Part shown: piece by piece, positions 22,838-39,158 of the stretch
Position numbering within the stretch: the first letter of the stretch is position 1
How the letters are laid out: every line of letters begins with the position of its first letter
From: Streptomyces sp. SLBN-31
Lineage (GTDB): Bacteria > Actinomycetota > Actinomycetes > Streptomycetales > Streptomycetaceae
Assembly (NCBI RefSeq): GCF_006715395.1
Contig: NZ_VFNC01000001.1
Span: 1,860,001-1,924,000 of the forward strand
Length of the DNA stretch: 64,000 nucleotides
Reading direction: 5' to 3'
Notes under the pieces: generated by a model
Told to the model about the DNA's origin: nothing
The model's input: the letters and a program-made list of their open reading frames with translations, nothing else
Database searches by the model: none
Made by a program: the position numbers and the translations under genes

Positions 22838-23041
22838 TCAGCCGCGCACGATGTTCTGGGCCTGTGGACCCTTCTGTCCCTGGCCGATATCGAAGGTGAC
22901 ATGCTCGCCCTCGGTCAGCTCCCGGTATCCGCTGCCCTGGATCTCGGAGTAGTGCGCGAACACGTCCGGGCCGCCGCCATCCTGGGCGATGAACCCGAAG
23001 CCCTTCTCAGAGTTGAACCACTTCACGACGCCGCTGGCCAT
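22838..23041 (-). CDS. Cold-shock protein (CspA family)
   Basis: 67 residues, the standard length. It is a single cold-shock domain with RNP1 KGFGFIAQ and RNP2 DVFAHY, plus the usual [11 protein letters not shown] start. It binds single-stranded RNA/DNA as an RNA chaperone. The ATG at 23041 (MASGVVKW) is used because AAGGA sits about 9 bases upstream and family members begin there; an in-frame ATG at 23059 would add six residues. It is the first of three csp genes in this window. Confidence 0.93.
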
Positions 23042-25209: not shown

Positions 25210-25424
25210 GCAGTCGTAACCTCCGTTATAGGGGCAGTGTGATCGCTCGTGACCACGTGAGGACCCCCGTCGGCTTGCTTCGCCGGGGGTCCGGCTGTTA
25301 GCCGGCGGCCCTCCGCGTGCCGGAACCGTGCCCGCTCCGGCCGCTCCCGCCTCATTCGCCCCTGCCGCCTCGCTTCACGGCAGATCGTCAGGGAAGGAGG
25401 TGAGGCCGACGGGAGCGCAGGCCG

Positions 25425-25870
25425 TTACTGGGGGCGGCGTCCGGTGATGTCCCCGCCAGGGTCGTCAGGCAGGGCGATGCGGGCGGTGATGCGTTTGCCG
25501 ACCGGCTCCCGTTGAGCCTCGAAACCCTGGGCGACGGCCATGACGATCTCCAGCCCGTGCTGCCCGACTCTGCCCGCATCGGCGGCCCGCGCCACTGGCA
25601 GGACGGGATCGCTGTCCCACACGACCACTTCCACGACGGCGCCGATGACGCGCAGTTCCATCAGCACGGGCCCAGGGGCGTATTTGCGGGCGTTGGTGAC
25701 GAGCTCGCTGACCACCAGTTGGGTCAGGTCCATCGCGCGAGCGGACACCGGAGGCCGTGCTTCGCCTGGACACGGGTGAGGAAGTCCACCGCCCGGTGTC
25801 GGGCCTCAGCGATCACGTGCCCGTCACCGTCCAGCGCGACGGTGTCCTGTATCCGAGGGGCGTCCGGCAT
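25425..25870 (-). pseudogene. ATP-binding (RsbW-like HATPase) gene with a single-base frameshift
   Basis: The 5' part (ATG 25870, MPDAPRIQDTVALDGDG, then ARHRAVDFLTRVQAKHGL) and the 3' part (VSARAMDLTQLVVSELVTNARKYAPG ending near 25425) form one HATPase_c anti-sigma-like protein of about 148 residues. They lie in different frames. Adding one C to the short C-run at 25748-25751 restores a continuous frame (HGL-P-VSARAM). The N-box SELVTNARKYA is intact. It is either a recent pseudogene or a sequencing indel. The family binds sigma factors or phosphorylates STAS partners. Confidence 0.75.
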
Positions 25871-26082
25871 CACGCTGCCCTCACCCTCGGGGACTGATTC
25901 AGCCGGGTCCACCCTCGTTCCCCCTTCAGTCGTCCTGCGCGTACCCGGCACTCTGCCTCACATGTCCCGTGAGAACGGCATAAAGGGCCGCACACGCGTT
26001 CGCCGTAGCATCGAGGCAGGTTTACCGGCGCACTGTCACGCCGGGCCTTGAGGTCCCATCAACGGGCGCGGTCGAGGGAACG

Positions 26083-26220
26083 GTGACAGATATCCGCGGA
26101 GCAGCCCGGCCCGGCCACTGTCGATCCGCCACACCGCCATCAGCGGCATCCGGGTGGTCACCACGCACGGCGAGATCGACCACGCCGTCAAGGACATGCG
26201 CAGCGAGGCCCTCCTGTCCT
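26083..26220 (+). pseudogene. STAS-domain (anti-anti-sigma) gene fragment
   Basis: A GTG at 26083 with GAGGGA upstream begins VTDIRGAARPG. One frame over, from about 26118, LSIRHTAISGIRVVTTHGEI and DHAVKDMRSEALLS match the N-terminal half of Streptomyces STAS antagonists. The joint requires a frameshift near 26112, and the motif with the phosphorylatable Ser is missing. The stretch 26221-26502 shows no recognisable continuation. Confidence 0.6.
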
Positions 26221-26502
26221 ACGACGGCGCGGCTGCCGAAGCCGACACAGCGTCCGTGACCGCGGGGCTGCCCCTGAGCGAAGGCGCTGAGTCTTTCGAA
26301 GCCGCCGAGCTGCAACTGAGCCTGGTGATGTGCAGCCCTTCCACACCGGCGCACTGGCGCAAGATCCGTTCCACGCCCGCGGACTGGCCGTGGTGCGGGA
26401 AGGCACGGCTGGAGGCGCTGAAGGCGGCCGCCCGGTCACGGAAATCGGTGGCCGCATTCTGGAAGAACCTCTGCAGGAGCCCTCGGGGGGCTGGAACATC
26501 CG

Positions 26503-26640
26503 GTGCTCCCCACAGAGCTGATCGTCGGTGAGCTGGTCACCAACGCCGCCCGCTCCGGCGGCGCCCCAGTGGGCCTGCGGCTGATTCGGGATCATCGTCT
26601 GATCTGCGATGTCTCCGATCTGAGAAGGTCAACGCCGAGT
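26503..26640 (+). pseudogene. HATPase fragment of a PP2C/HATPase phosphatase
   Basis: A short stretch reads [29 protein letters not shown] then [10 protein letters not shown]. This is the N-box region of the HATPase_c domain found at the C-terminus of many Streptomyces SpoIIE-type phosphatases. The rest of the domain (DxGRGL, GT motifs) is absent and the frame runs into the csp leader. With the STAS fragment and the frameshifted ATP-binding gene it forms a graveyard of sigma-factor regulators. Confidence 0.55.
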
Positions 26641-26925
26641 GAATCAATATCTGTTCCCGAGGGATCAGTTTTTGGAGGGTCGCGCAGCGGGAGTTTTTGC
26701 CGCGAAGAGCGGAGTGGAATTATCCAACGCACAGGGGCGGCTCCGGCGTGCTACTGTCTATCTCAGTTGCAGTTGTGGTTCCCAAAACTTCAAGTGCCCC
26801 CGCCAGGCTTCTGCCGGGCGAGAGGACTTTTGTATTTCCGGTCATTTCCGGTCGGGGTAATCATCGCGGCGACACGGCGTCCGCGCAGTGCGGACGCCGA
26901 TGCACTGCCCCAAAGGAGATATGAC
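26641..26925 (+). promoter_or_regulatory. Leader region of the second csp gene with a 10-bp hairpin
   Basis: The 285 bp before the ATG at 26926 are clearly less GC rich than neighbouring genes, as expected for a long cold-shock leader. A perfect 10-bp stem with a 5-nt loop (26875-26884 with 26890-26899) ends about 13 bases before AAAGGAG. It could control ribosome access or early termination. No promoter could be assigned with confidence. Confidence 0.5.
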
Positions 26926-27129
26926 ATGGCTGCTGGTACCGTGAAGTGGTTCAACGCGGAAAAGGGCTTCGGCTTCATCGAGCAGGACGGTGGCGGCGCC
27001 GACGTGTTCGCCCACTACTCGAACATCGCCGCGCAGGGCTTCCGCGAGCTGCTCGAGGGCCAGAAGGTGAACTTCGACATCGCGCAGGGCCAGAAGGGCC
27101 CGACGGCCGAGAACATCGTTCCGGCCTGA
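26926..27129 (+). CDS. Cold-shock protein (CspA family)
   Basis: 67 residues ([18 protein letters not shown]...). It is a single cold-shock domain with KGFGFIEQ (RNP1) and DVFAHY (RNP2). The ATG at 26926 has AAAGGAG 7 bases upstream; an ATG at 26921 is out of frame. In Streptomyces a csp of this type often lies beside a DEAD-box helicase, as it does here. Its mRNA ends at a strong hairpin. Confidence 0.94.
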
Positions 27130-27147
27130 CGCTCACGCGCAATCCGT

Positions 27148-27185
27148 AGCTGGGGCCCGCATCCCTCGGGGTGCGGGCCCCAGCT
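27148..27185 (+). terminator. Terminator of the second csp gene
   Basis: A perfect 14-bp stem (27148-27161 with 27172-27185) with a 10-nt loop, 19 bp after the csp stop codon. Confidence 0.8.
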
Positions 27186-27474
27186 GCACGTGTATTCCGC
27201 AGCGGCTTTTGCCCGCGGGACGACTCGGAGGAACCCGCAGTACCACCACAAGCGGTTCCTCCCCCAGGGCGCAGGCGCGTCCTGAAGCGCTGCACCGCAG
27301 CGGGCGCCCGGATCTCAAGGTCCCCATCGCGTCACCCATTTCAGCACCTGTGCCCACGGATGTTTCCGCCGGCCAGATCTGCTTTCTTTTGTCACCGGTC
27401 CATACTTGTAATTCTCCGTGCCATGCATCGCGGCGGGAATTCCTTGATATGTGCCACATCGAGGAAGGTTCCGC

Positions 27475-28974
27475 ATGAACCGCACGTACACGAACGACCG
27501 CTCCGCCCGCGCCCGCGCCCGTGACGGCCGTGCCGATGCCGGAAGGGGCGGCAGCGGCTACGGCTCGCGGGCACCGCGTCGTACCGGCGGCCCCGTCCGC
27601 TCCGGCGGTTACGGCCGTCGGCCCGCCGCCGTGCAAGGTGAGTTTGCGCTGCCCCGGACGATCACCCCCGCGCTGCCCGCCGTCGATGGCTTCGCCGATC
27701 TCGGCATGCCTGAGCAGTTGCTGGCCGAACTCGGCAGGCAGGGTGTGACCGCGCCGTTCCCGATCCAGGGAGCGACGCTGCCGAACTCCCTGGCGGGCCG
27801 TGACGTCCTGGGCCGCGGTCGCACCGGTTCCGGTAAGACCCTGGCCTTCGGCCTCGCCCTGCTCGCGCGTACCGCTGGGCAGCGTGCTGAGCCCCGTCAG
27901 CCGCTGGGGCTGATCCTCGTCCCCACGCGTGAGCTGGCACAGCAGGTGACAGACGCGCTGACCCCGTACGCCCGTTCCGTCGGGCTGCGGCTGGCCACGG
28001 TGGTAGGCGGCATGTCGATCGGCAGGCAGGCCGGCGCGCTGCGCGGCGGAGCCGAGGTCGTGGTCGCGACACCGGGACGGCTCAAGGACCTCATCGACCG
28101 CGGCGAGTGCAGGCTGAACCACGTGGGCATCACGGTGCTGGACGAGGCCGACCAGATGGCCGACATGGGTTTCATGCCCCAGGTCACCGCGCTGCTCGAC
28201 CAGGTGCGCCCCAAGGGGCAGCGGATGCTGTTCTCCGCCACCCTGGACCGCAACGTCGACCTGCTGGTACGCCGCTACCTGACCGACCCCGTCGTGCACT
28301 CCGTCGACCCGTCGGCCGGTGCGGTCACGACGATGGAGCACCACGTCCTGCACGTCCACGGCGCCGACAAGCACGCCGCCACGACCGAGATCGCCGCCCG
28401 CGACGGCCGCGTGATCATGTTCCTGGACACCAAGCACGCCGTCGACCGGCTGACCCAGGACCTGCTCAACAGCGGGGTGCGGGCCGCCGCGCTGCACGGC
28501 GGCAAGTCGCAGCCCCAGCGCACCCGCACGCTGGCGCAGTTCAAGACGGGGCACGTCACCGTGCTGGTGGCGACCAATGTCGCGGCGCGCGGCATCCACG
28601 TCGACAACCTCGACCTGGTCGTCAACGTCGATCCCCCGACCGACCACAAGGACTACCTCCACCGCGGAGGCCGCACCGCCCGCGCCGGTGAGTCCGGCAG
28701 CGTCGTCACCCTGGTCACGCCGAACCAGCGCCGAGGCATGGTGCGTCTGATGTCGGACGCCGGAATCCGGCCGCAGACCACCCAGATCCGCTCGGGCGAC
28801 GAGGCCCTGAGCCGGATCACCGGCGCCCAGGCCCCGTCCGGCATCCCGGTCGTCATCACCGCACCTGTGGTCGAACGCCCCAAGCGCAGCGCCACCTCCC
28901 GAGGCCGCCGTCGCCCCGCCTCGGCGACCAGGCGCACCCCCGGACGCCAGTCCGGCTTCGGCGCGGTGGCCTAG
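27475..28974 (+). CDS. DEAD-box ATP-dependent RNA helicase
   Basis: 499 residues. Residues 1-60 are an Arg/Gly-rich tail. The core shows the Q-motif region (FPIQGATLP), Walker A GRTGSGKT, PTRELAQQV, the VLDEADQMADMGF box, LFSATLDR, VIMFLDTKHAVDRL, VATNVAARGIHV and HRGGRTARAG. A basic C-terminal tail follows. It unwinds RNA secondary structure, probably during cold shock, given the adjacent csp gene. The ATG at 27475 has GAGGAAGG upstream. The 289-bp gap before it shows no gene and may be a long leader. The frame is intact and all motifs are present. Confidence 0.93.
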   Translation: MNRTYTNDRSARARARDGRADAGRGGSGYGSRAPRRTGGPVRSGGYGRRPAAVQGEFALPRTITPALPAVDGFADLGMPEQLLAELGRQGVTAPFPIQGATLPNSLAGRDVLGRGRTGSGKTLAFGLALLARTAGQRAEPRQPLGLILVPTRELAQQVTDALTPYARSVGLRLATVVGGMSIGRQAGALRGGAEVVVATPGRLKDLIDRGECRLNHVGITVLDEADQMADMGFMPQVTALLDQVRPKGQRMLFSATLDRNVDLLVRRYLTDPVVHSVDPSAGAVTTMEHHVLHVHGADKHAATTEIAARDGRVIMFLDTKHAVDRLTQDLLNSGVRAAALHGGKSQPQRTRTLAQFKTGHVTVLVATNVAARGIHVDNLDLVVNVDPPTDHKDYLHRGGRTARAGESGSVVTLVTPNQRRGMVRLMSDAGIRPQTTQIRSGDEALSRITGAQAPSGIPVVITAPVVERPKRSATSRGRRRPASATRRTPGRQSGFGAVA

Positions 28975-29020
28975 AACTTTCGTGATCAGGAAGCCGGCCC
29001 ATCTCTGCAGGAGGCACCTT

Positions 29021-29425
29021 TTGACGCTGATTCAGACACAGTCCCAGTCGGCGGACGCCGACCCCGCCCACAGGACAGCGGTGGAGGCCATGGACGCGGC
29101 CGGACCGCAGGTCTGTGACGACATGAGCGTCGAGGTGGCGCTGGCCGTCATGGCTGCCGCCCGCACGGTCCGACTGGTCGTCTGCGACCAGGACGGCCAG
29201 TGCACCGGCCTGGTCACCCATGCCGAACTCGCCGCCGTCCGTGACAGCTCCGACTACACGGACCGTGTCCGCCTGCGAGACATCCTCGGCGACCACGGTT
29301 CGTTCGCCTCACCCGTGACCACGATGGCCGAAGCCGAGCACGCGATGCGCACCCGTCGGCTCGGTGTCCTGCCGGTGGTCGACGAGCAAGGCAGCGCCCT
29401 GGGCGTCCTCGCCCTCTCCCGCTGA
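29021..29425 (+). CDS. CBS-domain protein
   Basis: 134 residues with a pair of CBS motifs: DDMSVEVALAVMAAARTVRL with VVCDQDGQCTGLVT, and MAEAEHAMRTRRLGVLPVVDEQGSALGVL. CBS pairs bind adenine nucleotides and regulate partners. The TTG at 29021 is proposed as the start because CAGGAGG lies 8 bases upstream; an in-frame GTG at 28982 has no ribosome site. It follows the helicase by 46 bp and is probably co-transcribed with it and the next gene. Confidence 0.78.
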   Translation: MTLIQTQSQSADADPAHRTAVEAMDAAGPQVCDDMSVEVALAVMAAARTVRLVVCDQDGQCTGLVTHAELAAVRDSSDYTDRVRLRDILGDHGSFASPVTTMAEAEHAMRTRRLGVLPVVDEQGSALGVLALSR

Positions 29426-29475
29426 AACACCCGGCCCCTGATCGGACCGTTCTTCCCTTCTCTCTGTGAGGCCAC

Positions 29476-29784
29476 ATGCGCTGCGTCATCGCCCGCTTCC
29501 CCTTCGAGCTCACCAAGGCTGGCGTGCTGGAATCGATGAAGGGCATCAAGCCCGAACCGGTCACCGGCCAATCGGTGATCATCGGCCGCCGCCACTACCC
29601 CGTCAAGCAAGTCGGCCAGGTCATCACGCGCCAGGACCGCCGTGACTTCAGCGCCGCCGAAGTCCTGCGGGCCATGGCTCAGCTCGGCTTCACCTGCCGC
29701 GCCGTTCCCAAGGCAGCGCCCCTGGGCATTCTCAGCACGATGCAGCACGCTTCCGCGATGCTCGGCACCCCCGTCATGGCCTGA
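29476..29784 (+). CDS. Conserved small protein (SCO5918-like family)
   Basis: 102 residues (MRCVIARFPFELTKAGVL...; KPEPVTGQSVIIGRRHYPVK). I recall near-identical proteins beside the cold-shock DEAD-box helicase in other Streptomyces, described as the SCO5918 family, with no known role. There is no signal peptide or membrane segment. RHYPVKQVGQVITRQDRRDF is the most conserved-looking part. It has GAGG upstream of the ATG at 29476 and lies 51 bp after the CBS gene in the same orientation. The helicase-CBS-small protein order suggests a shared cold-shock function. Confidence 0.75.
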   Translation: MRCVIARFPFELTKAGVLESMKGIKPEPVTGQSVIIGRRHYPVKQVGQVITRQDRRDFSAAEVLRAMAQLGFTCRAVPKAAPLGILSTMQHASAMLGTPVMA

Positions 29785-30230
29785 TCGGGTAAACAGACAC
29801 GAGCCGACACCTGAGCAGCAATGTCGGCCCGACCCGTACGCCGGTCGGGCCCACACCTGTGCAGCGGGTTCCCGTCACCGTTGCCCTGCAGGATCCGGGC
29901 GACAGGGAACTGCAGGCGCGTGGGCGGCCCGTCCTCCTTCACGGGGCGTCGAAGACGGCGGGTGAACTCGCCCGAGTGGGCGAAATCCCACGGCACAGCC
30001 GACACCCTCTGCCTCCACAGCGCTTCGGCTGCCGGCCGACCGGGTGACGGCAGCGCCACCGGTGGCCGCGGCCAGGGACTTCTGGTGCTACCCGACCCCT
30101 GTGCCCCGCCCTCCACCTGCCAACCCCGCAGAGCCCCAGTGCTTGCCTGAGGGGGCGGAGGACCACGGCCGACGCATGACGGCACCCGCTGCCGTGAGCC
30201 CGTGTCTCCGCAGCCCGCGGACTGCTCGCG
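29785..30230. other. Intergenic, no gene seen
   Basis: 446 bp after the small conserved gene. Frames on both strands lack ribosome sites and coding-like third positions. No hairpin or repeat stood out. Confidence 0.4.
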
Positions 30231-30579
30231 TCAGGGGCCGTACCGGTTCGCCACCAGCTGCTCGATCATCCCGGGATCGTCGAGGGCGGCCCAGGGCCTT
30301 CTGTCACGCTCGTCAACGGCCGACCTGGGGGCGTCACGGCTAGAAACGTCCGTGCCGGTCGGTGGTGTTCTCACGAGACGCAGTGTTGGCCGGTGCCGCC
30401 GACGGTAGCCGCGGCGCAGGCGCGGCGACGCCACGCCCAGCCCGACATGCCACGCGGTGGTGGGTCACTGTGAGCGCCGGACAAAGCCTCGCAGCTGCTT
30501 GAACCATCCATGGGTACCGGTCGAGGCGGAGCACCTCATCTTCCAGCGCCCGGAAATCTATACCCGCTGGAGTAGACAT
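30231..30579 (-). pseudogene. Possible decayed gene, unknown function
   Basis: An ATG at 30579 opens MSTPAGIDFRALEDEVLRLD RYPWMVQAA. The end of the stretch, in another frame, reads DRRPWAALDDPGMIEQLVANRYGP before a stop at 30231 with coding-like third positions. The middle has no continuous coding frame. It looks like the head and tail of one small gene with a damaged middle. I recognise no family, and chance cannot be excluded. Confidence 0.25.
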
Positions 30580-30627
30580 TGGCCGACGGTGTGGTTAGGG
30601 TTTCTGTCGTAGCCGAGATCAAGAGAG

Positions 30628-31020
30628 GCCCGGCAGAGATGAACTGCCGGGCAGCAGTACGCAGTTGCAGTTCGCAGGACGGTGCGGTGGTGGAGTTCCG
30701 AAGCCAGAGCGGTTGCAGGACGGCGACGGGACTGACGACCGGACCGGGTGGCCCGCAGTGATCAGGGGCCGCCATGAGCAGTACCGCAGTGGCAGTACCA
30801 GTAAGTGAAGGTTCGCTGTACCCAGCAGTGAAGTTAGTGAGCAGTACCTCGGTGAAGGCGTCGGCTGCGGGCGCGCGCACCGGGAGGTTCGGCAGTGGAG
30901 TTCCAAGCCAGAGCAGACGCAGGAGGGGCGACGGGGCTGGTTGCCGAAGAGTGGCGCTGTTCGAGGCCACCAGCAGTTCGCAATACCAGTAGTACGCAGT
31001 TCCCGTTAGTGAGTAGTTGA
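30628..31020. repeat. Repetitive leader-like region with iterated GCAGTAC/GTTAGTGAG motifs
   Basis: It starts with a 9-bp hairpin (30628-30636 with 30644-30652). It then contains repeated short words: AGCAGTAC at 30653, 30778 and 30840; AGTACGCAGTT at 30656 and 30991; GTTAGTGAG at 30834 and 31005; CAGTTCGCA at 30669 and 30974. Two longer degenerate copies containing GGAGTTCC(G)AAGCCAGAGC lie at about 30691 and 30897. The repeats are interspersed and not protein-periodic. They lie upstream of the MerR-like gene at 31289. Confidence 0.6.
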
Positions 31021-31226
31021 TCAAGAGGGAAGAACGGAGGAGCCGAGCGCCATCAGGATCGCCCGGGCGGAAGTCTTGGACCCGGGTACCGCAGGACATC
31101 GATAGTGAGGTGGTCTCCGGTCGAGCAACCGCGATCCCCGCGCCCCCGACAGCGTCTCGGTCGGGTCTGCGGAAACAGAGGGCCGGTGCAGTATCAGGGC
31201 CGGCAGATGGTGTAGTAGTTCCTTCG

Positions 31227-31259
31227 GGGCCCTGGTGCCAGTACGGCGCCAGGGCCCCT
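31227..31259 (+). promoter_or_regulatory. Strong hairpin before the MerR-like gene
   Basis: A 14-bp stem (31227-31240 with 31246-31259, one G-U pair) closes a 5-nt loop, AGTAC, the same word repeated in the upstream leader. It ends about 22 bases before the GAGAGGTG ribosome site of the gene at 31289. It could be an attenuator for the leader or a terminator of an upstream transcript. Confidence 0.6.
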
Positions 31260-31288
31260 CAATGCGTGCCACAGAACAGAGAGGTGCA

Positions 31289-31627
31289 ATGACAGCAGAC
31301 GACATGTTCGGCCGTCTCGATGACGACGACTACCCCGCCTACACCATGGGCCGGGCCGCCGAGATGCTCGGCACCACGCAGAGCTTCCTCCGTGCCATCG
31401 GCGAAGCCCGCCTCATCACCCCGCTGCGCTCCGCGGGCGGACACCGCCGCTACTCCCGCTACCAGCTGCGCATCGCCGCCCGCGCCCGGGAACTCGTCGA
31501 CCAGGGCACTCCCATCGAGGCCGCCTGCCGCATCATCATCCTCGAAGACCAGCTCGAAGAAGCCCGGCGCATCAACGCCGAATACCGCCGCGCCACCGAG
31601 TCGGCGAACCAGACCGCAGCAGCGTGA
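31289..31627 (+). CDS. MerR-like helix-turn-helix regulator
   Basis: 112 residues. Residues 15-75 are a MerR-type winged helix (YTMGRAAEMLGTTQSFLRAI, RLITPLRSAGGHRRYSRYQL). A helical tail follows (AACRIIILEDQLEEARRINAE), probably for dimerisation; there is no ligand-binding domain. It resembles BldC-like and other small MerR proteins of Streptomyces. The ATG at 31289 has GAGAGGTG upstream. The leader carries a strong hairpin and repeat array, and the gene ends at a U-tract terminator. The target is unknown; the csp gene 240 bp downstream is a candidate. Confidence 0.85.
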   Translation: MTADDMFGRLDDDDYPAYTMGRAAEMLGTTQSFLRAIGEARLITPLRSAGGHRRYSRYQLRIAARARELVDQGTPIEAACRIIILEDQLEEARRINAEYRRATESANQTAAA

Positions 31628-31756
31628 GATGAGCGTGCCCCTCCGTGTCGGCGGGCACCGCACGCATGCTCTGCCGTGTGGCGTCGTTTCCTGTGGTGAC
31701 GCGGCGTGTGGCCGTGTAGCGTCTGCCTCAGCTGTCGTGGTTCGGAATTCCCTCTT

Positions 31757-31784
31757 GCCCACGCCTTCGGTGTGGGCGTTTTGC
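31757..31784 (+). terminator. Rho-independent terminator after the MerR-like gene
   Basis: A 9-bp stem with one G-U pair (31757-31765 with 31769-31777) and a TTC loop, followed by GTTTTG. It is one of the few hairpins in this window with a T-run. Confidence 0.75.
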
Positions 31785-31867
31785 TGTGCTGTGCCGCAGG
31801 GACCAGGGCGATCACCTCTGCCTTCCACATGGAGTGGTAGGCGTTCATCGACTGGAAGGCATCAGAC

Positions 31868-32071
31868 ATGGCAACGGGAACTGTGAAGTGGTTCAACGCG
31901 GAGAAGGGCTTCGGTTTCATCGCCCAGGACGGCGGCGGCCCGGATGTCTTCGCGCACTACTCCGCGATCAACTCCACGGGGTTTCGTGAGCTCCAGGAGG
32001 GCCAGGCCGTGACGTTCGACGTCACCCAGGGCCAGAAGGGTCCGCAGGCCGAGAACATCACCCCGGCCTGA
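31868..32071 (+). CDS. Cold-shock protein (CspA family)
   Basis: 67 residues ([18 protein letters not shown]...) with KGFGFIAQ and [12 protein letters not shown]-binding motifs. It is very similar to the csp at 26926 and more distant from the one at 22838. The spacer to the MerR-like gene contains a terminator, so it needs its own promoter within 31785-31867. A very strong hairpin lies about 100 bp after its stop. Confidence 0.94.
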
Positions 32072-32177
32072 CCTCACAGACCCGCCCGAGGGATCGCGCA
32101 CACTGCGCCCGGTGAGCGCCGCCCGTGTGGTCTTTGCCGTCCACCGGGCGAAGCGCCTGCTCTCGTGCAGGGCTGCA

Positions 32178-32219
32178 AGATCAGGGGCCGCGCAGCCGTG
32201 GCTGCGCGGCCCCTGATCT
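32178..32219. terminator. Strong bidirectional terminator
   Basis: An inverted repeat of about 19 bp (32178-32196 with 32201-32219) closes a tetraloop. It lies between the convergent csp gene (stop 32071) and the minus-strand gene ending at 32335. Confidence 0.82.
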
Positions 32220-32334
32220 GTTGACACGGGTGTGACCTCGGCCGAACTACCTGACCTCAGTTGCTTCGAGCGTCGTCCGGTTCGTGTGCCGCATGCCCTG
32301 CGCCTCTGCGCGCGCAGTTCGGAGCGGTAGACGG

Positions 32335-32895
32335 TCAGGTGCCCGTCCAGGCGGCGAGGAAGGCTTGCCGTCCATCCGGATCGTCCCATCTGCGGTCCGC
32401 ATGCAGAACGCGCCAGGCGGTGAGCTCGAGATCTCGGAGCCACAACTCGCCGATGACCTGGGTCTTGAGGTCGGGCAAATGGTCGGACTCGGCGAGGGCT
32501 TGACCGATCACCTCTCCGGCCGCCACGCGCTGGGGCGGAGTCATCTCATCGATGGCCGAGAGGATCTGCCTGGCCAGGGCCGTTCCCTCTCCTTCCAGAG
32601 AACGCAGCACCTGAGCCTTCATGTTGACGGGTAGCAGGTACGCGGTGCCCGACGACCTCCACAGGTCCGACCAAAAGCGTTCGCCTGCCTCGGTGGGGGC
32701 AGGCAGCGCGGCCAGCAGCCCGAGGAGACGGCCGGTGGCCGCGTAACCATCGGAGTGGGCGGCTGCGACGACTGCGATGCCGGCGACGCCCTCCACATCG
32801 AGCCGGCCGGCCTCGAGATGCGGAGCCAGGTCCAGTTGGTGTTCCAACTGGTCTGCGAGGGCGGTGGATACGTGGGGGCGGACGTCAGGAAGCAT
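32335..32895 (-). CDS. Hypothetical alpha-helical protein
   Basis: 186 residues (MLPDVRPHVSTALADQLEHQ...), mostly Ala/Leu-rich helices with repeated LxxLLxxLPxPxxAxE-type segments (RLLGLLAALPAPTEAGERFW). There is no signal peptide, membrane segment or recognised domain. The ATG at 32895 has AAGGA 7 bases upstream; an in-frame ATG at 32957 has no site. It diverges from the TrhA-like gene at 33161. Confidence 0.6.
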   Translation of the reverse strand: MLPDVRPHVSTALADQLEHQLDLAPHLEAGRLDVEGVAGIAVVAAAHSDGYAATGRLLGLLAALPAPTEAGERFWSDLWRSSGTAYLLPVNMKAQVLRSLEGEGTALARQILSAIDEMTPPQRVAAGEVIGQALAESDHLPDLKTQVIGELWLRDLELTAWRVLHADRRWDDPDGRQAFLAAWTGT

Positions 32896-33160
32896 CGGCG
32901 ATCCTTGCGCGTAGGCGAGCGAAGATGCCCGTTCGGAAGCCCTGATCTTTCCCATGGTCGGCCGTTTTACTCGGCTTCGGCAGGCCCGATCGGCGGGAGG
33001 GTCAACGGGACTGGAGTTCACGCGGTGGAGAGTCCGGGCCCGGCGACGTGGCTCTGGGGTTCTGGACCGACCTCCCATGAATGCCTGCCGGAGTGAGGTC
33101 TTTTAGCATTACCGCATTGCTGCCAGTGACGCCCAGTCGCCCGGGGGAGAACGAGAAGCA

Positions 33161-33946
33161 GTGTCCCGTGATGCCGCTGAAGTCGAATACGGTCACGCCG
33201 CCTCAGCGCGTGGAGAGCGCCGTGAAGGCGGGCTACCCGACGGATCGCAAGGCGGACACGCAGGGGAGAAGGCTCACTCGGTCTCCGCCCTGGCGGAGTG
33301 GGCGGCCGACCTCGCCGAACCGATCAAGCCTAAATTGCGTGGCTGGCTCCATGCCGGAATGGTCCCCGCCGCACTGATCGCGGGCGTCGTACTCGTCTGC
33401 CTGGCCCGTACTCCGCAGGCAGTCCTGGCCTGCGCCGTGTACTCGGTCACCGCCTTGCTGCTGTTCGCAACGAGCGCCGTCTACCACCGTGGCACCTGGG
33501 GACCACTGGGCGAGGCTCTTCTACGACGACTCGACCACGCCAACATCTTCCTGATCATCGCCGGCACCTGCACCCCCCTGGCCGTGCTCCTCCTGCGGCC
33601 TGAACAGCGGTCCATGCTGCTGTGGATCGTATGGACTGGGGCATTGGCCGGCATCGTGTTCCGGGTCCTGTGGGTCGGAGCCCCGCGATGGCTGTACACC
33701 CCGTGTTACCTGGCCCTGGGGTGGGCGCCGGTGCGCTACCTGCCCGACTTCCTGCACACCGGCGGAGCGGCCGTAGTCGTCCTGATCGTTGTCGGCGGTC
33801 TCCTCTACAGCGCGGGCGCGGTCGTCTACGCCCTGCAGCGGCCCGACCCCTCACCCCGCTGGTTCGGCTACCACGAGGTCTTCCACGCCCTGACCGTGGC
33901 AGCCTTCACCGCGCACTACATCGCCATCTCCCTGGCCACCTACTGA
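33161..33946 (+). CDS. PAQR/hemolysin-III family membrane protein (TrhA-like)
   Basis: 261 residues with seven hydrophobic segments from about residue 65 on. The motifs SAVYHRGTWG, LRRLDHANIFLIIAGTCTP and FGYHEVFHALTVAAFTAHYIAI carry the conserved Ser, Asp and the three His of the zinc site of PAQR/HlyIII proteins. Bacterial members affect membrane lipid homeostasis; haemolysis is not implied. The GTG at 33161 is the likely start, although the hydrophilic first 55 residues are longer than usual and an internal start is possible. Confidence 0.85.
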   Translation: MSRDAAEVEYGHAASARGERREGGLPDGSQGGHAGEKAHSVSALAEWAADLAEPIKPKLRGWLHAGMVPAALIAGVVLVCLARTPQAVLACAVYSVTALLLFATSAVYHRGTWGPLGEALLRRLDHANIFLIIAGTCTPLAVLLLRPEQRSMLLWIVWTGALAGIVFRVLWVGAPRWLYTPCYLALGWAPVRYLPDFLHTGGAAVVVLIVVGGLLYSAGAVVYALQRPDPSPRWFGYHEVFHALTVAAFTAHYIAISLATY

Positions 33947-34018
33947 GGGCGCGGCGACGAGTACTGCCTCGCTCGCCGCTAATACTTCCTCCAACTTCCC
34001 CCACCACTCCGAGGATTG

Positions 34019-34129
34019 GTGGCGAAGGGCCTGTTCCACCTGCTCGTCACCGGTGTGGTGGTCCTGACCGCTGTCTTCGTCCCTGTCAGGCGGCGCCTGG
34101 GCCGCCTCCGGAGGCGCCTGCCCCGGTGA
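34019..34129 (+). CDS. Possible small membrane protein (36 aa)
   Basis: A short frame from the GTG at 34019, with GAGGA just upstream, encodes MAKGLFHLLVTGVVVLTAVF then VPVRRRLGRLRRRLPR. That is one transmembrane helix with a strongly basic C-terminal tail, a layout typical of single-pass microproteins. Third positions are mostly G/C. It lies 70 bp after the TrhA-like gene in the same direction. It is too short to be sure that it is translated. Confidence 0.3.
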   Translation: MAKGLFHLLVTGVVVLTAVFVPVRRRLGRLRRRLPR

Positions 34130-34207
34130 ACGCCGCCATCCTGGGCAAAGCACCCCTGGGGCGTCCGCCCAAGGGCCCGCAGCAGCCGGGACCGGAGAAG
34201 GCCCGAG

Positions 34208-35118
34208 TCATCGTCCGGGAACGCTCTGCCTCGTCCGCGACGGGGCGGACGCGTCGGTGAGGTCGGCACCGGTGTCGTCGGCCCGCCGGGAGTGGCCGAC
34301 GCCCTGCCAGTCCAGGCACATGACCGTCGCATCGTCCTGCAGGTGACCGTGGTGGGCCTCGACGATCGCCGCGATGAGGGTGCGGGCGGCCTCGCGGGGG
34401 TGGAGCGCGCGCGTGCGCACGATCAGGTCGGGCAGATCGAGGCTGCCTGCGTTGCACTCCAGCATGCCGTCGGTCAGCATCACCAGCCGGTCGCCCGGCC
34501 GCAGGTCCAGCGATTGGACCCGGTAGCTGTGAGGGGCAGGAAAGCCGAATGGCATATCGATCTTCGGAACGATCTCCCGCACCTGTCCGTCCCGCATCCG
34601 CAGCGGCCAGGGATGCCCGGCGTTGATGAACTCGGTCTCGCCGTCGATCAGGCTTATCCGCAGAAGCTGACCGTCACGTAACCCTGGCGGCCGTGCTCGC
34701 GCATGGCCTGGTCTGCCTGGCGGGCCTGTTCGGCCAGGCCGGCGCCGGCCCGTCGGGCCCGGCGCAGCGCGCCCACCAGCAGGGTGGCCAGCAGTGCGGC
34801 GTCGAAGTCGTGACCCATGGCGTCGGTGACGGAGAGCTGGACCGTGTCCCGGTCGATCACGTAGTCGAAGGTGTCACCCCCTACATGGTCGGCCGGCTCC
34901 AGCGCCCTGGCCACCGCGAATTGCGCCGCCTCACACGCCAGCGACGACGGCAGCAGCCGGTGCTGGATCTCCGCGGCCAGGCTCAGTGGGACGGTACGGC
35001 GGCCCCACTGGTACACGTCGGTGTAGGACCGGTTCGCGATGACGATGTAAGCCAGGGCGTGCGCGGTCTCGCCGATCTCCCGCATCACCTCCGCGTCCGG
35101 CGCCGCGGGCAGGAACAA
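34208..35118 (-). pseudogene. PP2C (SpoIIE-type) phosphatase, truncated and frameshifted
   Basis: The 5' part reads EVMREIGETAHALAYIVIAN, LSLAAEIQHRLLPSSLACEA, DHVGGDTFDYVID and LSVTDAMGHDFDAALLATLL. It ends at a stop at 34654 just after GYVT. One frame over, QLLRISLIDGETEFINAGHP to DDATVMCLDW continues the PP2C domain to 34208. Adding one G near 34671 (GYVT-G-QLL) restores the frame. The N-terminus is also missing: an in-frame stop lies a few codons before the TTG at 35118, where an integrase remnant begins on the other strand. Confidence 0.8.
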
Positions 35119-35275
35119 GTGAAGTGGCGAAGCTGCGCCGCTCTATCGTCGGCTGCCTTCACCAGGGTTTGTGCGCGGGCGCGGACCCGGCGGAGGCCGC
35201 CCAGCGAGCAGGCAACAGCGTGGAGGTTCGCTGTCCCCGTACGCGAGGTGTCTCGATGACCGGCGCAGCGCAGCG
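35119..35275 (+). pseudogene. Tyrosine recombinase (integrase) C-terminal remnant
   Basis: The plus strand reads LRRSIVGCLHQGLCAGADPAE then AAQRAGNSVEV and, after a one-base shift, YARCLDDRR. Streptomyces integrases end with AGNSVEVLL(S)RYAKCLDG, so this is the segment around the nucleophilic Tyr. The catalytic domain upstream is missing, replaced by the truncated PP2C gene. The remnant ends at the stop codon of the opposite-strand rpoA. Confidence 0.6.
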
Positions 35276-35276
35276 T

Positions 35277-36299
35277 TCAGTATTGCTCGGTCTCCACGAA
35301 ACCCGCGTCCGGTGCGTCGTCGGCGCCGAAGGCGTCGGCAGCGGCGGTCGGGTCGAATCCGGGCGGGCTGTCCTTGAGGCCCAGGCCCATGCCGGCCAGC
35401 TTCGCCTTGACCTCGTCGATCGACTTCGCACCGAAGTTGCGGATGTCCAGGAGGTCCGCCTCGGAGCGGGCCAGGAGCTCACCCACCATGTGAACGCCCT
35501 CGCGCTTGAGGCAGTTGTACGAACGGACCGTGAGCTCGAGCTCCTCGATCGGCAGCGCCAGGTCGGCGGCCAGGGCGGCGTCCGTGGGGGACGGGCCCAT
35601 GTCGATGCCCTCGGCGTCGATGTTCAGCTCACGGGCCAGACCGAACAGCTCGACCAGGGTCCTACCGGCCGACGCCAGGGCGTCACGCGGACGCATGGCC
35701 TGCTTGGTCTCGACGTCGACGATCAGCTTGTCGAAGTCGGTGCGCTGCTCGACACGGGTCGCCTCGACCTTGTACGTGACCTTGAGAACCGGCGAGTAGA
35801 TGGAGTCGACCGGAATACGGCCGATCTCCTGGCCCAGCTGCTTGTTCTGGACGGCGGAGACGTAGCCGCGACCGCGTTCGACGGTCAGCTCCATCTCCAG
35901 CTTGCCCTTGCCGTTGAGCGTGGCGAGGACGAGGTCGGGGTTGTGCACCTCGACACCGGCCGGGGATGCGATGTCGGCGGCGGTGACGAGACCCGGGCCC
36001 TGCTTGCGCAGGTACATCACGACCGGCTCGTCGTGCTCCGAGGAGACGACCAGCTGCTTGATGTTGAGGATCAGGTCGGTGACGTCCTCCTTGACGCCCG
36101 GCACGGTGGTGAACTCGTGCAGCACGCCGTCGATGCGGATGCTGGTGACAGCGGCGCCGGGGATCGAGGACAGCAGGGTACGGCGCAGGGAGTTGCCGAG
36201 GGTGTAGCCGAAGCCCGGCTCCAGCGGCTCGATCACGAACCGGGAGCGGAACTCGTCGACGACCTCTTCGGTCAGGGACGGACGCTGAGCAATCAGCAC
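35277..36299 (-). CDS. rpoA: RNA polymerase alpha subunit, copy outside the ribosomal operon
   Basis: 340 residues, full Streptomyces length and intact. The N-terminal dimerisation domain ([21 protein letters not shown]) and the C-terminal DNA/activator-binding domain ([41 protein letters not shown]) are complete, ending GFVETEQY. From memory, it differs at only a few positions from the normal Streptomyces RpoA. The usual neighbours (rpsK upstream, rplQ downstream) are absent. The start is a GTG at 36299 after GGAGGCAATACCCC, where I recall ATG in the ribosomal-operon copy. It lies between two plus-strand integrase remnants. It is probably a second, transferred or duplicated rpoA. Confidence 0.92.
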
Positions 36300-36302
36300 G
36301 GG

Positions 36303-36370
36303 GTATTGCCTCCAGTGGTTTGGCGCCCGCTGTGCGACGCCGTAGACACCACGAAGGGTACGGGCGGTAC
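36303..36370 (-). promoter_or_regulatory. Retained upstream region and ribosome site of rpoA
   Basis: GGAGG at 36309-36313 (minus strand), 9 bases before the GTG, is the ribosome site. The following ~60 bp upstream (ACCACTGGAGGCAATACCCC and CGTGGTGTCTACGGCGTCGC) match my memory of the rpsK-rpoA spacer of Streptomyces. The copy therefore seems to have moved with part of its native leader. Similarity appears to end near 36360-36370. Confidence 0.45.
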
Positions 36371-36739
36371 AGACGATACGGCCTCCGTGGGCTGCGCTGC
36401 ACTTCCTCGTGGTGCACGGCCCCCGCAACCGCAACTGCCGCACGGGATGAGCCTCAGTGCTCATCCCCGATGGCGTGACCTTGTACTCGGGTCCTTCGGG
36501 GTGGGCTCCTGATCGAGGTGCACCGGGGATGGTGAGGCTGGAGTCCGCCGGTGGTGAGCGGAACATAGACCATGATCGCCGGTTGGCCAAACCGGCGATG
36601 GTGACGACCATTGAAGTTGTCCCATTCGGCTGAGCTCGGCGGGGGACCCGTACCAGACAAGGTGACCGCGGCGCCCTTCGCTGAAATGCAGCGGCGCCTG
36701 TGCCTGCGTGGAAGGGTTCCACGCCCTCGAGGAGAGTGA

Positions 36740-37821
36740 GCAGTCCTGTCTAATCGGGAGGCGAAGGTCGAGTACGCGCGCATCACGAACCGTCGCTACG
36801 AAGGGACGTTCATCGAGCCCAACGAGATCACGGTGATCGAATGCTGGATCAGTGGCTCGACAGGAAGGCGGAGGATCTGGAAGAGAGCACCGTTTACAGC
36901 TACAAGATGACCCTGGCTCGTGTCCGGGGGAAGCTCGGGCACATTCGGCTCCAGGAACTGACCGAGGACCACGCCGAGGCGTGGATGAGGTGGGCGCTTG
37001 GGGAGGGCCGCGTTCGTGGTGACAAGGCGGGTGCGGGCCTGGGGGTGACCTCGGTTGAGATGTCCCTGGCGCGGCTGAAGGAGGCACTGAACCGGGCAGT
37101 GGCCCGGCGCCGGATTGCCGCGAACGTTGCCCAGGAAGTCACGATCCCTCGGAAGGCGCGCAAGGCGGAACGCAGTGCCAAGGCAGTCGTGCAGCCCTGG
37201 AACGTCGAGGAGGTTCATGCCTTCGTGCGCGCGGTGAAGGACGACCGCCTCTACGCGCCTCTCCTTCTCTCGCTGATGGGCCTGCGGCCGGCGGAGATCT
37301 GTGGCATGTGCTGGGCCGATGTCGACCTGAGCGCGGCGACCTTGACTGTTGCCAACACGCGGATGCTGATGGGGAACAAGACCGTGGTGGAGAAGGACAC
37401 GAAGTCCCTCGCCGGTGAGCGGCAGCTTCCCCTGCCCGATCTGGTTCGGGAGGCGCTGGCGCGTCTCAGGGCCATGCACGTGGCCGAGGAGCTGGCGGCG
37501 GGGAAGAGGTATGAGGACAGCGGGTACGTGCTCGTGGACGAACTCGGCAGGGCGCTCAACGGGCGGCAGCTGCGCGAGCGGGCGTACAAGGTCATGGACG
37601 AGCACGGGCTGCGCCGGGTCCGCTTGTACGACGCTCGCGCGAGTTGCTTCACGTACCTGGCGAACAACGGTGTGCCGGATCACCTGCTGGCCCGGTGGGC
37701 CGGGCACACCGACGTCAAGACCACGAAGCGCTGGTATGTGAAGCCGGGTGTGGAGGATCTTCGGCCGGCGGCGGATACGTGGGGAGGTCTGGCGAGCGTC
37801 TCCACCCCCGCTCCTGCATAG
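36740..37821 (+). pseudogene. Phage-type tyrosine integrase, frameshifted N-terminus
   Basis: From the ATG at 36841 the frame encodes about 326 residues: a SAM-like core-binding domain (MLDQWLDRKAEDLEESTVYS) and a catalytic domain with LMGLRPAEICGMCW (first Arg), LYDARASCFTYLANNGVPDH (YDAR in place of HDxR), ARWAGHTDVKTTKRWYVK (GH and the Tyr). The arm-binding N-terminus (EAKVEYARITNRRYEGTFIE, PNEITVIE) lies one frame over and joins if one A is added at 36838-36841. More N-terminal sequence (GFHALEESE) is in yet another frame. Catalytic residues survive, so residual activity of the C-terminal part cannot be excluded. Confidence 0.75.
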
Positions 37822-37847
37822 AGTGTGAGATGTGGGAGCGTGGGCGG

Positions 37848-39158
37848 GTGAGTGAGACGAACGTCGAAACCCTGCAATACCGCTTTGACGGGCCAGAACA
37901 GGCGCCGGTCCTGGTCATGGGATGCTCCCTCGGTGCTACATGGCACATGTGGGACCGCCAGGTCCCGGAGCTGACCAGGCAGTGGCGTGTCTTCCGCTTC
38001 GACCTGCCGGGACACGGCGGCGCACCCGCCTACCCGGCCGGGTCGGTCACCGAGCTCACGGAGCGGCTGCTGGCCACCCTCGACCGGCTCGGCGTGCAGC
38101 GCTTCGGCTACGCGGGCTGCGCGCTCGGCGCCGGCCTCGGCCTGGAGCTCGCCCTGCGCCACCCGGAGCGGCTGGCCTCGCTGGCGGTGATCGCCGCCTC
38201 GCCGCGCTTCGGCACGGCGGACGAGTTCCGCCAGCGCGGGGTGATCGTGCGCACCAACGGGCTGGACCCCATCGCCCGTACGTCCCCCGACCGCTGGTTC
38301 ACCACCGGGTTCGCGGCGACGCAGCCCGCGATCACCGACTGGGCCGTGCAGATGGTGCGCACCACGGACCCCGGCTGCTACATCGCCGCCTGCGAGGCGC
38401 TGGCCTCGTTCGACGTGCGGGGTGAGCTCGGCCGGGTCGGTGTGCCGACCCTCGTCCTCGTCGGTTCGGACGACCAGGTCACCGGTCCCGCCGAGGCCCG
38501 CACCCTGGTCGCCGGCATCCCCGACGCCCGTCTCGCCGTCGTGCCGGGCGCCTCCCATCTGGTGCCGGTCGAGCAGCCCGCCGCCGTCACCGACCTGCTG
38601 GTCCGGCACTTCTCCACCGCCTGGCAGCCCGGCTACGTAGAGTCCTCCACCGGCCAGATCGCGATCCCGGCGGCCCCTCTCAAGGCCGCCATCGCCGCCC
38701 AGCCGCAGCCCCGGCAGCCCGCGCCCATCGCCGAGATCGCACCGCCCGCCGCCGTCCCCTCGCCGGCGGCCGGACACCCCGACCTGTACGACACCGGCAT
38801 CAAGGTCCGTCGCGAGGTGCTCGGCGACGCGCACGTCGACCGGACGCTGGCCGAGACCGACGCGTTCTCCGGGGACTTCCAGGAGCTCCTCACCAGATAC
38901 GCGTGGGGCGAGATCTGGAACCGGCCCGGCCTCGACCGTCGCTCGCGCAGCTGTGTCACCCTCACCGCCCTCGTCGCCGGCGGCCACCTCGACGACCTCG
39001 CCGCCCACACCCGGGCCGCCCTGCGCAACGGCCTCACCCCCCTCGAGATCAAGGAGGTGCTGCTGCAGGCGGCCGTCTACTGCGGCATACCGGCGGCGAA
39101 CAGCGCCTTCAAGGTGGCGCAGCAGGTCATCCGGGAGGAGACGACACCCGAGGAGTGA
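37848..39158 (+). CDS. pcaL: Fused 3-oxoadipate enol-lactonase / 4-carboxymuconolactone decarboxylase
   Basis: 436 residues. Residues 1-260 are an alpha/beta hydrolase (VLVMGCSLGATWHMWDRQVP, DQVTGPAEARTLV, PGASHLVPVEQPAAV). A Pro/Ala-rich linker follows, then a carboxymuconolactone decarboxylase domain (312-436; EIWNRPGLDRRSRSCVTLTA, GLTPLEIKEVLLQAAVYCGI). The fusion catalyses two successive steps of the protocatechuate branch of the beta-ketoadipate pathway. The nucleophile elbow reads GYAGCALGAG, with Ala where the catalytic Ser is expected. No other pca genes are nearby. The GTG at 37848 has GGGAG upstream. Confidence 0.88.
   Translation: MSETNVETLQYRFDGPEQAPVLVMGCSLGATWHMWDRQVPELTRQWRVFRFDLPGHGGAPAYPAGSVTELTERLLATLDRLGVQRFGYAGCALGAGLGLELALRHPERLASLAVIAASPRFGTADEFRQRGVIVRTNGLDPIARTSPDRWFTTGFAATQPAITDWAVQMVRTTDPGCYIAACEALASFDVRGELGRVGVPTLVLVGSDDQVTGPAEARTLVAGIPDARLAVVPGASHLVPVEQPAAVTDLLVRHFSTAWQPGYVESSTGQIAIPAAPLKAAIAAQPQPRQPAPIAEIAPPAAVPSPAAGHPDLYDTGIKVRREVLGDAHVDRTLAETDAFSGDFQELLTRYAWGEIWNRPGLDRRSRSCVTLTALVAGGHLDDLAAHTRAALRNGLTPLEIKEVLLQAAVYCGIPAANSAFKVAQQVIREETTPEE

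Follow-up and report, generated by a model that had tools for sequence, protein, structure and literature searches.

Second rpoA genes described in bacteria

The gene for the alpha subunit of RNA polymerase, rpoA, is generally regarded as a core gene that is present once per genome and passed on vertically. In Francisella, two such genes, rpoA1 and rpoA2, are present, one of them outside the ribosomal operon, and both alpha subunits were found in RNA polymerase, as stated in the accessible part of PMC3294249. The same part reports two rpoA genes in Streptomyces avermitilis, found among 1055 genomes of all bacteria and called a fairly recent duplication. In Psychromonas ingrahamii, an alpha operon segment that includes ribosomal protein genes is duplicated (accessible part of PMC8046335), and the accessible text of PMC13118837 mentions rpoA in passing among conserved genes. 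Within the open-licence PMC literature, no description of a Streptomyces rpoA family was recognised beyond PMC3294249 among the matches listed.

The second rpoA studied here lies in a stretch of 64,000 nucleotides (the window, G000:C1:1860001-1924000) and was compared with further second copies (extras) and with native rpoA genes. Like the Francisella pair, it represents the case of two rpoA genes of which one is placed outside the ribosomal operon. While the accessible part of PMC3294249 describes the Francisella pair as lineage-specific, diverged and forming an oriented heterodimer, the copies considered here are 0.875-0.984 identical in DNA within a genome, patchily distributed, found also on plasmids, and apparently converted in many genomes. 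An alpha2 of the Francisella type would be expected to show changes in beta-binding or dimer determinants; the equivalents of E. coli R45 and L48, which bear on assembly, are identical in 70/70 extras, that of the window included. The second rpoA of S. avermitilis comes from the same genus, is likewise outside the operon and perhaps belongs to the same family as the gene of the window. The published account differs, however, from the present picture of a family that occurs in about a fifth of the species sampled, has its own type of leader and is carried by plasmids as well. P. ingrahamii has a second rpoA too, but there the whole segment is duplicated, whereas here rpoA stands without rpsK and rplQ.

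The second rpoA of the window

The gene, labelled rpoA2 here, and its leader are located as follows:
35277-36299, minus strand: rpoA2, full-length second gene for the RNA polymerase alpha subunit (340 aa, start codon GTG)
36300-36391, minus strand: rpoA2 leader of a type common to other extras, with GGAGG at 36309-36313

A complete extra rpoA of 340 aa with a GTG start had been proposed in the original prediction, and it is present and intact at this position. The product contains the three RpoA Pfam domains RNA_pol_L, RNA_pol_A_bac and RNA_pol_A_CTD above cut-off, and the solved alpha structure 7vpd, which we take to be that of S. coelicolor, matches residues 1-340. The search for a rpsM-rpsK-rpoA-rplQ operon elsewhere in the genome, suggested together with the prediction, recovered an operon rpoA in exactly this gene order at G000:C1:139594-140613, so a second rpoA does exist. 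The alignment of the two proteins, also suggested, gave 97% identity, with 94% DNA identity (957/1022) in an alignment that begins at base two of the start codon and reaches the stop. The two proteins differ, native to rpoA2, by M1V (the GTG start), P112S, V155L, M208L, K213R, I269V, S271M, V276L, A307G, D329A and A330P. When the 4-kb native locus was compared with the window by BLASTN, the sole match besides rpoA was a distant 27-bp word.

Distribution of second copies

Across 392 genomes of the same genus, with five candidates scored per genome, an rpoA match was present in 390, and 86 genomes besides G000 had more than one. A repeat search covered these in two groups of 45 and 41 genomes, and second copies were counted by hand in 41/45 and 38/41 of them (set aside: G025, G060, G115 and G234 in the former, 4/45, and G075, G198 and G375 in the latter, 3/41). 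Together with G000 this gives about 80/392, a total that is approximate because contig ends leave some copies fragmented, others are broken, and draft assemblies may merge copies that are nearly identical; it takes in 17 genomes with copies in pieces and also G242, whose copy contains a stop. The statement that Streptomyces normally have one rpoA therefore applies to roughly 80% of the genomes sampled in the genus but fails for those with a second copy. More than one match was also seen in 17/112 genomes of other genera of the family and in 5/177 genomes elsewhere in the class, both figures counting matches and not true copies. The exact leader-plus-start pattern was found in 72 stretches of named genomes, all of them Streptomyces save Actinobacteria bacterium OV320. 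Two single genomes may be mentioned: G142 has three extra rpoA copies on three contigs (L035, L063, L072), and in G375 (C1:4792687-4793702), a genome rated 55% complete, rpoA lies in overlapping pieces of different frames, perhaps through sequencing errors.

A common leader type among the extras

For the comparison, 70 extras from 63 genomes were set against 90 natives, of which 64 come from genomes with more than one match (in two of these the second match is a fragment) and 26 from others. As the extras were picked among near-full-length matches, intact copies are over-represented, and fragments exist; six duplicate or partial loci (L001, L007, L010, L012, L100, L106) were left out of the tree and the statistics. 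The start codon is GTG in 57/70 extras and ATG in 13/70, and the length is within 9 aa of 340 in 68/70 of those fetched.

Over 75 nt of leader, mean identity is 0.709 among the extras and 0.591 among the natives, whereas extras compared with natives reach 0.481 within a genome (own native) and 0.479 against other natives. The nearest leader in another genome belongs to an extra for 67/70 extras but for only 3/90 natives, and several leaders of extras are 0.87-0.92 identical to that of the window. In most rows the stretch that matches the window comprises some 60-90 bp of leader and the gene, and ends about 9 bp past the stop. The ribosome sites differ as well: GGAGG occurs within 110 nt upstream in 68/70 extras and 11/90 natives, GAAGGA in 3/70 and 86/90, respectively. 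The view that the window gene had kept its native ribosome site was therefore mistaken, its GGAGG being the site of extras and not the GAAGGA of natives. As to the further claim that about 60 bp of the rpsK-rpoA spacer had apparently been retained, the leader that matches other extras measures some 60-90 bp in most rows. Because TACCCTT (49/70 extras, 85/90 natives) and GGCGTCA (51/70 and 50/90) occur in both kinds of leader, the rpoA2 leader was likely derived from such a spacer.

By leader, start codon and 3' end, the extras look mostly like one family, for which the label rpoA2 is used, and this family appears to have spread horizontally in Streptomyces and probably in other Streptomycetaceae. 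The window gene has both the extras-type leader and a position outside the ribosomal operon. Native-like leaders are found in a few extras (L069, L082, L093). The last of these (G388:C1:10638395-10639408) is a third rpoA with a leader 0.93 identical to that of its own native, perhaps a separate recent duplication beside rpoA2.

Likeness of the coding region to the resident rpoA

In the tree of coding sequences the extras do not form one clade, and many pair with their own native. For 43/67 extras with a usable own native, this native is the closest of the 90; for the other 24/67, the window rpoA2 included, it is not the best match. The longest identical tract is shared with the own native rather than with any other native in 42/67 extras, and the tract shared with the own native reaches at least 200 nt in 41/67. 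In windows of 150 alignment columns, the own native is among the top four in a fraction of 0.75-0.76 mid-gene (0.76 at columns 451-600) and of 0.10 in the last one (columns 901-1050). Similarity of extra leaders tracks similarity of native coding sequences weakly (Spearman 0.16; pairs of 62 genomes that are not independent).

The best reading of the mid-gene tracts would be gene conversion between the extra and the resident rpoA, as judged against the 90 sampled natives and without a species-tree model. In some draft genomes both rpoA copies break at the same points, which fits gene conversion. Concerted evolution, in which housekeeping paralogues are kept alike by gene conversion, is familiar from duplicated tuf genes; the present case differs in that one partner sits at varying places and on plasmids, with ends that stay distinct. 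The window rpoA2 appears as an exception, as it shows no sign of a recent conversion event: its own native ranks 26th of 90, and the longest identical tract shared with it is 88 nt. In G254, two rpoA2 copies in opposite orientation (C1:608773-609789 on the plus strand and 10931041-10932057 on the minus strand) are at zero tree distance and sit near both chromosome ends, perhaps in terminal inverted repeats.

Plasmids and chromosomal sites

The gene is held by 21 Streptomyces plasmid records. The eight that were opened measure 79 to 799 kb, six being recorded as linear and two as circular, and all eight have an ATG start and, by eye, an rpoA2-like leader. Typing classed seven of them as non-mobilizable and one, the linear NZ_CP108499 (129.9 kb, MOBF relaxase), as mobilizable; on the latter a single gene separates rpoA2 from a terminal-protein gene.

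The extras are found at scattered sites. On large contigs (37 rows, 35 genomes; some contigs may be rotated) they lie nearer to the contig end than the natives, at a median of 0.27 of the half-length against 0.82 for the natives (Wilcoxon p 0.00025). Carriage on one large syntenic element was rejected, since in an all-against-all comparison of ORFs around the 70 extras at most seven loci of other genomes shared any ORF among the 60 top-ranked. Carriage by phages was rejected as well: of 20 matching phage records, one reaches 60-80% identity and 19 stay below 60%, no Streptomyces phage is named among them, and these matches are probably the rpoA of other bacteria.

A probable island around rpoA2

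The window rpoA2 lies towards the right end of a stretch with the following features:
25243-37824, no strand: probable island of about 12.6 kb
26932-27120, plus strand: another cold-shock domain of the island, recognised by domain match
27451-28974, plus strand: DEAD-box helicase
28982-29425, plus strand: CBS-domain protein
30521-31629, plus strand: stretch with a MerR-family regulator gene (31235-31627), common to two linear plasmids beside rpoA2
31868-32071, plus strand: cold-shock protein gene (CSD), with relatives near rpoA2 in five other genomes
33161-33946, plus strand: HlyIII-family protein, with relatives near rpoA2 in G099 and G142
34208-35118, minus strand: SpoIIE-type phosphatase, split into two parts in different reading frames (34208-34597 and 34654-35118)
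about 35119-35274, plus strand: left integrase remnant, frameshifted C-terminal end in two frames, convergent with rpoA2
36841-37821, plus strand: right integrase remnant, tyrosine integrase ORF of 326 aa with a Phage_integrase domain, ending at the right island edge
37851-39158, plus strand: gene right of the island, with alpha/beta hydrolase and carboxymuconolactone decarboxylase domains

In 11/12 loci of relatives that were read, the match to the right flank begins no more than 20 bases from 37825, immediately past the integrase stop. In four of the twelve (G016, G017, G003, G004) the adjoining sequence matches the window at about 25.0-25.24 kb and the island is absent, the match ending at about 25.24 kb being joined directly to that starting at about 37.83 kb. 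Because these relatives join its two flanks, 25243-37824 is probably an insertion. Alternatively, the stretch could have been lost in the relatives. At the 37825 site, an integrase-like stretch was found in four others (G006, G007, G010 and G013; L252, L254, L256 and L261), so that this place, upstream of the hydrolase/decarboxylase gene, may be a hot spot for integration; in G009, G002, G015 and G005 neither the match to the window at about 25 kb nor an integrase-like stretch was seen there. Direct repeats of at least 10 bp with at most one mismatch were absent from the stretches compared at the island ends, and no tRNA was found within the window.

The two tyrosine-integrase remnants that had been noted beside rpoA2 are both there. 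The right one is accompanied by an out-of-frame N-terminal piece from 36740. The locus combines an integrase gene beside the edge of the probable insertion with an empty site in relatives, as in integrative elements, the integrase itself being broken. The left one we take to be the C-terminal end of a tyrosine recombinase, from a motif seen by eye; neither this remnant nor a matching 509-aa frame in L065 had a Pfam hit, and a PHROG scan of the remnant returned nothing useful. Over 36 aa it is 83% identical to the remnant that occupies this position in G285 (L083), and it also matches long open frames in L065 and L242. A like remnant end, convergent and at the same place, is found in nine other genomes (G285, G212, G370, G262, G108, G275, G049, G193, G377), and in G141 a long open relative faces rpoA2. 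This recurrence suggests that an older rpoA2 element had the recombinase of the left remnant.

Among the other island genes, the SpoIIE-type phosphatase has a relative, about 60% identical, on plasmid NZ_CP108499, and two linear plasmids contain a counterpart of window positions 30521-31629, at 84 and 88% DNA identity, with a MerR gene 1.6 and 1.9 kb before rpoA2. Cold-shock genes lie within about 6.5 kb of extras at seven loci in six genomes, the window included, where about one would be expected by chance (estimated from 10 such genes in the 9.47-Mb genome of the window; the loci are not independent). Three of the ten cold-shock domain matches of the genome fall within about 9 kb of each other in the window (22847-23035, 26932-27120, 31874-32065), and two of these share the island with the DEAD-box helicase and the MerR gene.

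Selection on rpoA2

Between the window rpoA2 and its own native, dN is 0.019 and dS 0.224 (ratio 0.087), and the median dN/dS over 600 sampled pairs is 0.107 for extras and 0.025 for natives. Separated by part (at most 400 sampled pairs), the values for extras and natives are 0.065 and 0.030 in the N-terminal domain (NTD), 0.115 and 0.000 in the C-terminal domain (CTD), and 0.301 and 0.031 in the tail. Selection on rpoA2 is purifying and weaker than on rpoA, with the strongest relaxation in the tail and the CTD; it may have acted in earlier hosts. Relaxation in these parts would agree with the effect of a second alpha on activator response that the original prediction suggested. The equivalents of E. 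coli R265, N268, C269, K271, G296, K298 and S299, presumably the DNA-contact positions of the alpha CTD, are identical in 70/70 extras, that of the window among them. Asp replaces the Glu of E. coli E261 in 18/70 extras, the window rpoA2 not being one of them.

Possible role of a mobile alpha subunit

Taken together, the gene of the window is probably a member of a horizontally spread rpoA2 family and an intact, functional mobile alpha, with mobility and intactness read from sequence and the role by extension. The rpoA2 protein would enter the host RNA polymerase as an alpha homo- or heterodimer. Conversion would leave the middle of the coding sequence and that of the resident rpoA alike in many carriers while leader and 3' end stay rpoA2-like; an NTD matched in this way would keep the second alpha compatible with the resident beta and beta-prime, and a freer CTD and tail would let the plasmid or island tune activator contacts or the supply of alpha. 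In the window rpoA2 is intact within a carrier in partial decay. More tentatively, plasmids and islands might bring their own alpha into the host enzyme and so shift the promoters that are served, an exchangeable mobile regulator in which conversion keeps the assembly domain compatible and CTD and tail remain under control of the element; we regard this extension as possible but doubtful.

Perhaps rpoA2 is instead a passive passenger, repeatedly acquired, recombined with the resident gene and lost again without benefit to host or element. Selection weaker than on rpoA, broken copies such as those of G242 (in-frame TAG) and G234 (53-aa fragment), the patchy distribution and the lack of a widely conserved neighbourhood would all agree with this, and conversion alone could keep the mid-gene intact. 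However, dN/dS among extras is well below 1, in the NTD above all, and the window copy, which lacks recent conversion, is constrained as well, so that we hold a mere passenger to be unlikely, if still the most serious competitor. A recent duplication of the resident rpoA within the lineage, as suggested for S. avermitilis in the accessible part of PMC3294249, would account for the close likeness of extra and own native seen in many genomes and for L093 of G388 with its native-like leader. For the window it is most improbable, as the own native takes only rank 26 and the leader resembles those of several extras far more closely than extras resemble their own natives on average. The original prediction of duplication or acquisition on an integrative element is consequently narrowed: acquisition agrees with the absence of the island in relatives, the plasmids and the remnants, while duplication of the own rpoA is at odds with leader and rank.

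That a spare alpha serves to escape phage proteins that cut or modify alpha is conceivable, as the phage protein Rac acts on Pseudomonas alpha (accessible part of PMC7552054), and mobile carriage and a relaxed CTD would suit such a counter-inhibitor. Yet no neighbour family is common to more than a few loci and the DNA-contact residues looked at are unchanged, and we give this explanation hardly more than a slim chance. Even less credible is an assembly artefact or contamination, the former being one of the outcomes that would have overturned the prediction. Nothing specific speaks for it, although draft genomes do break at the repeat. It is unlikely because single-contig genomes (e.g. G007, G009, G040, G049) also carry both copies, and the locus lies inside a 4.2-Mb contig among neighbours common to other genomes.

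If about a fifth of the species sampled in the genus do have such a mobile second alpha, mobile DNA would be able to provide hosts with an alternative core polymerase subunit. Conversion between resident and mobile rpoA would disturb trees and typing based on this gene, and it would explain why such copies resemble recent duplications.
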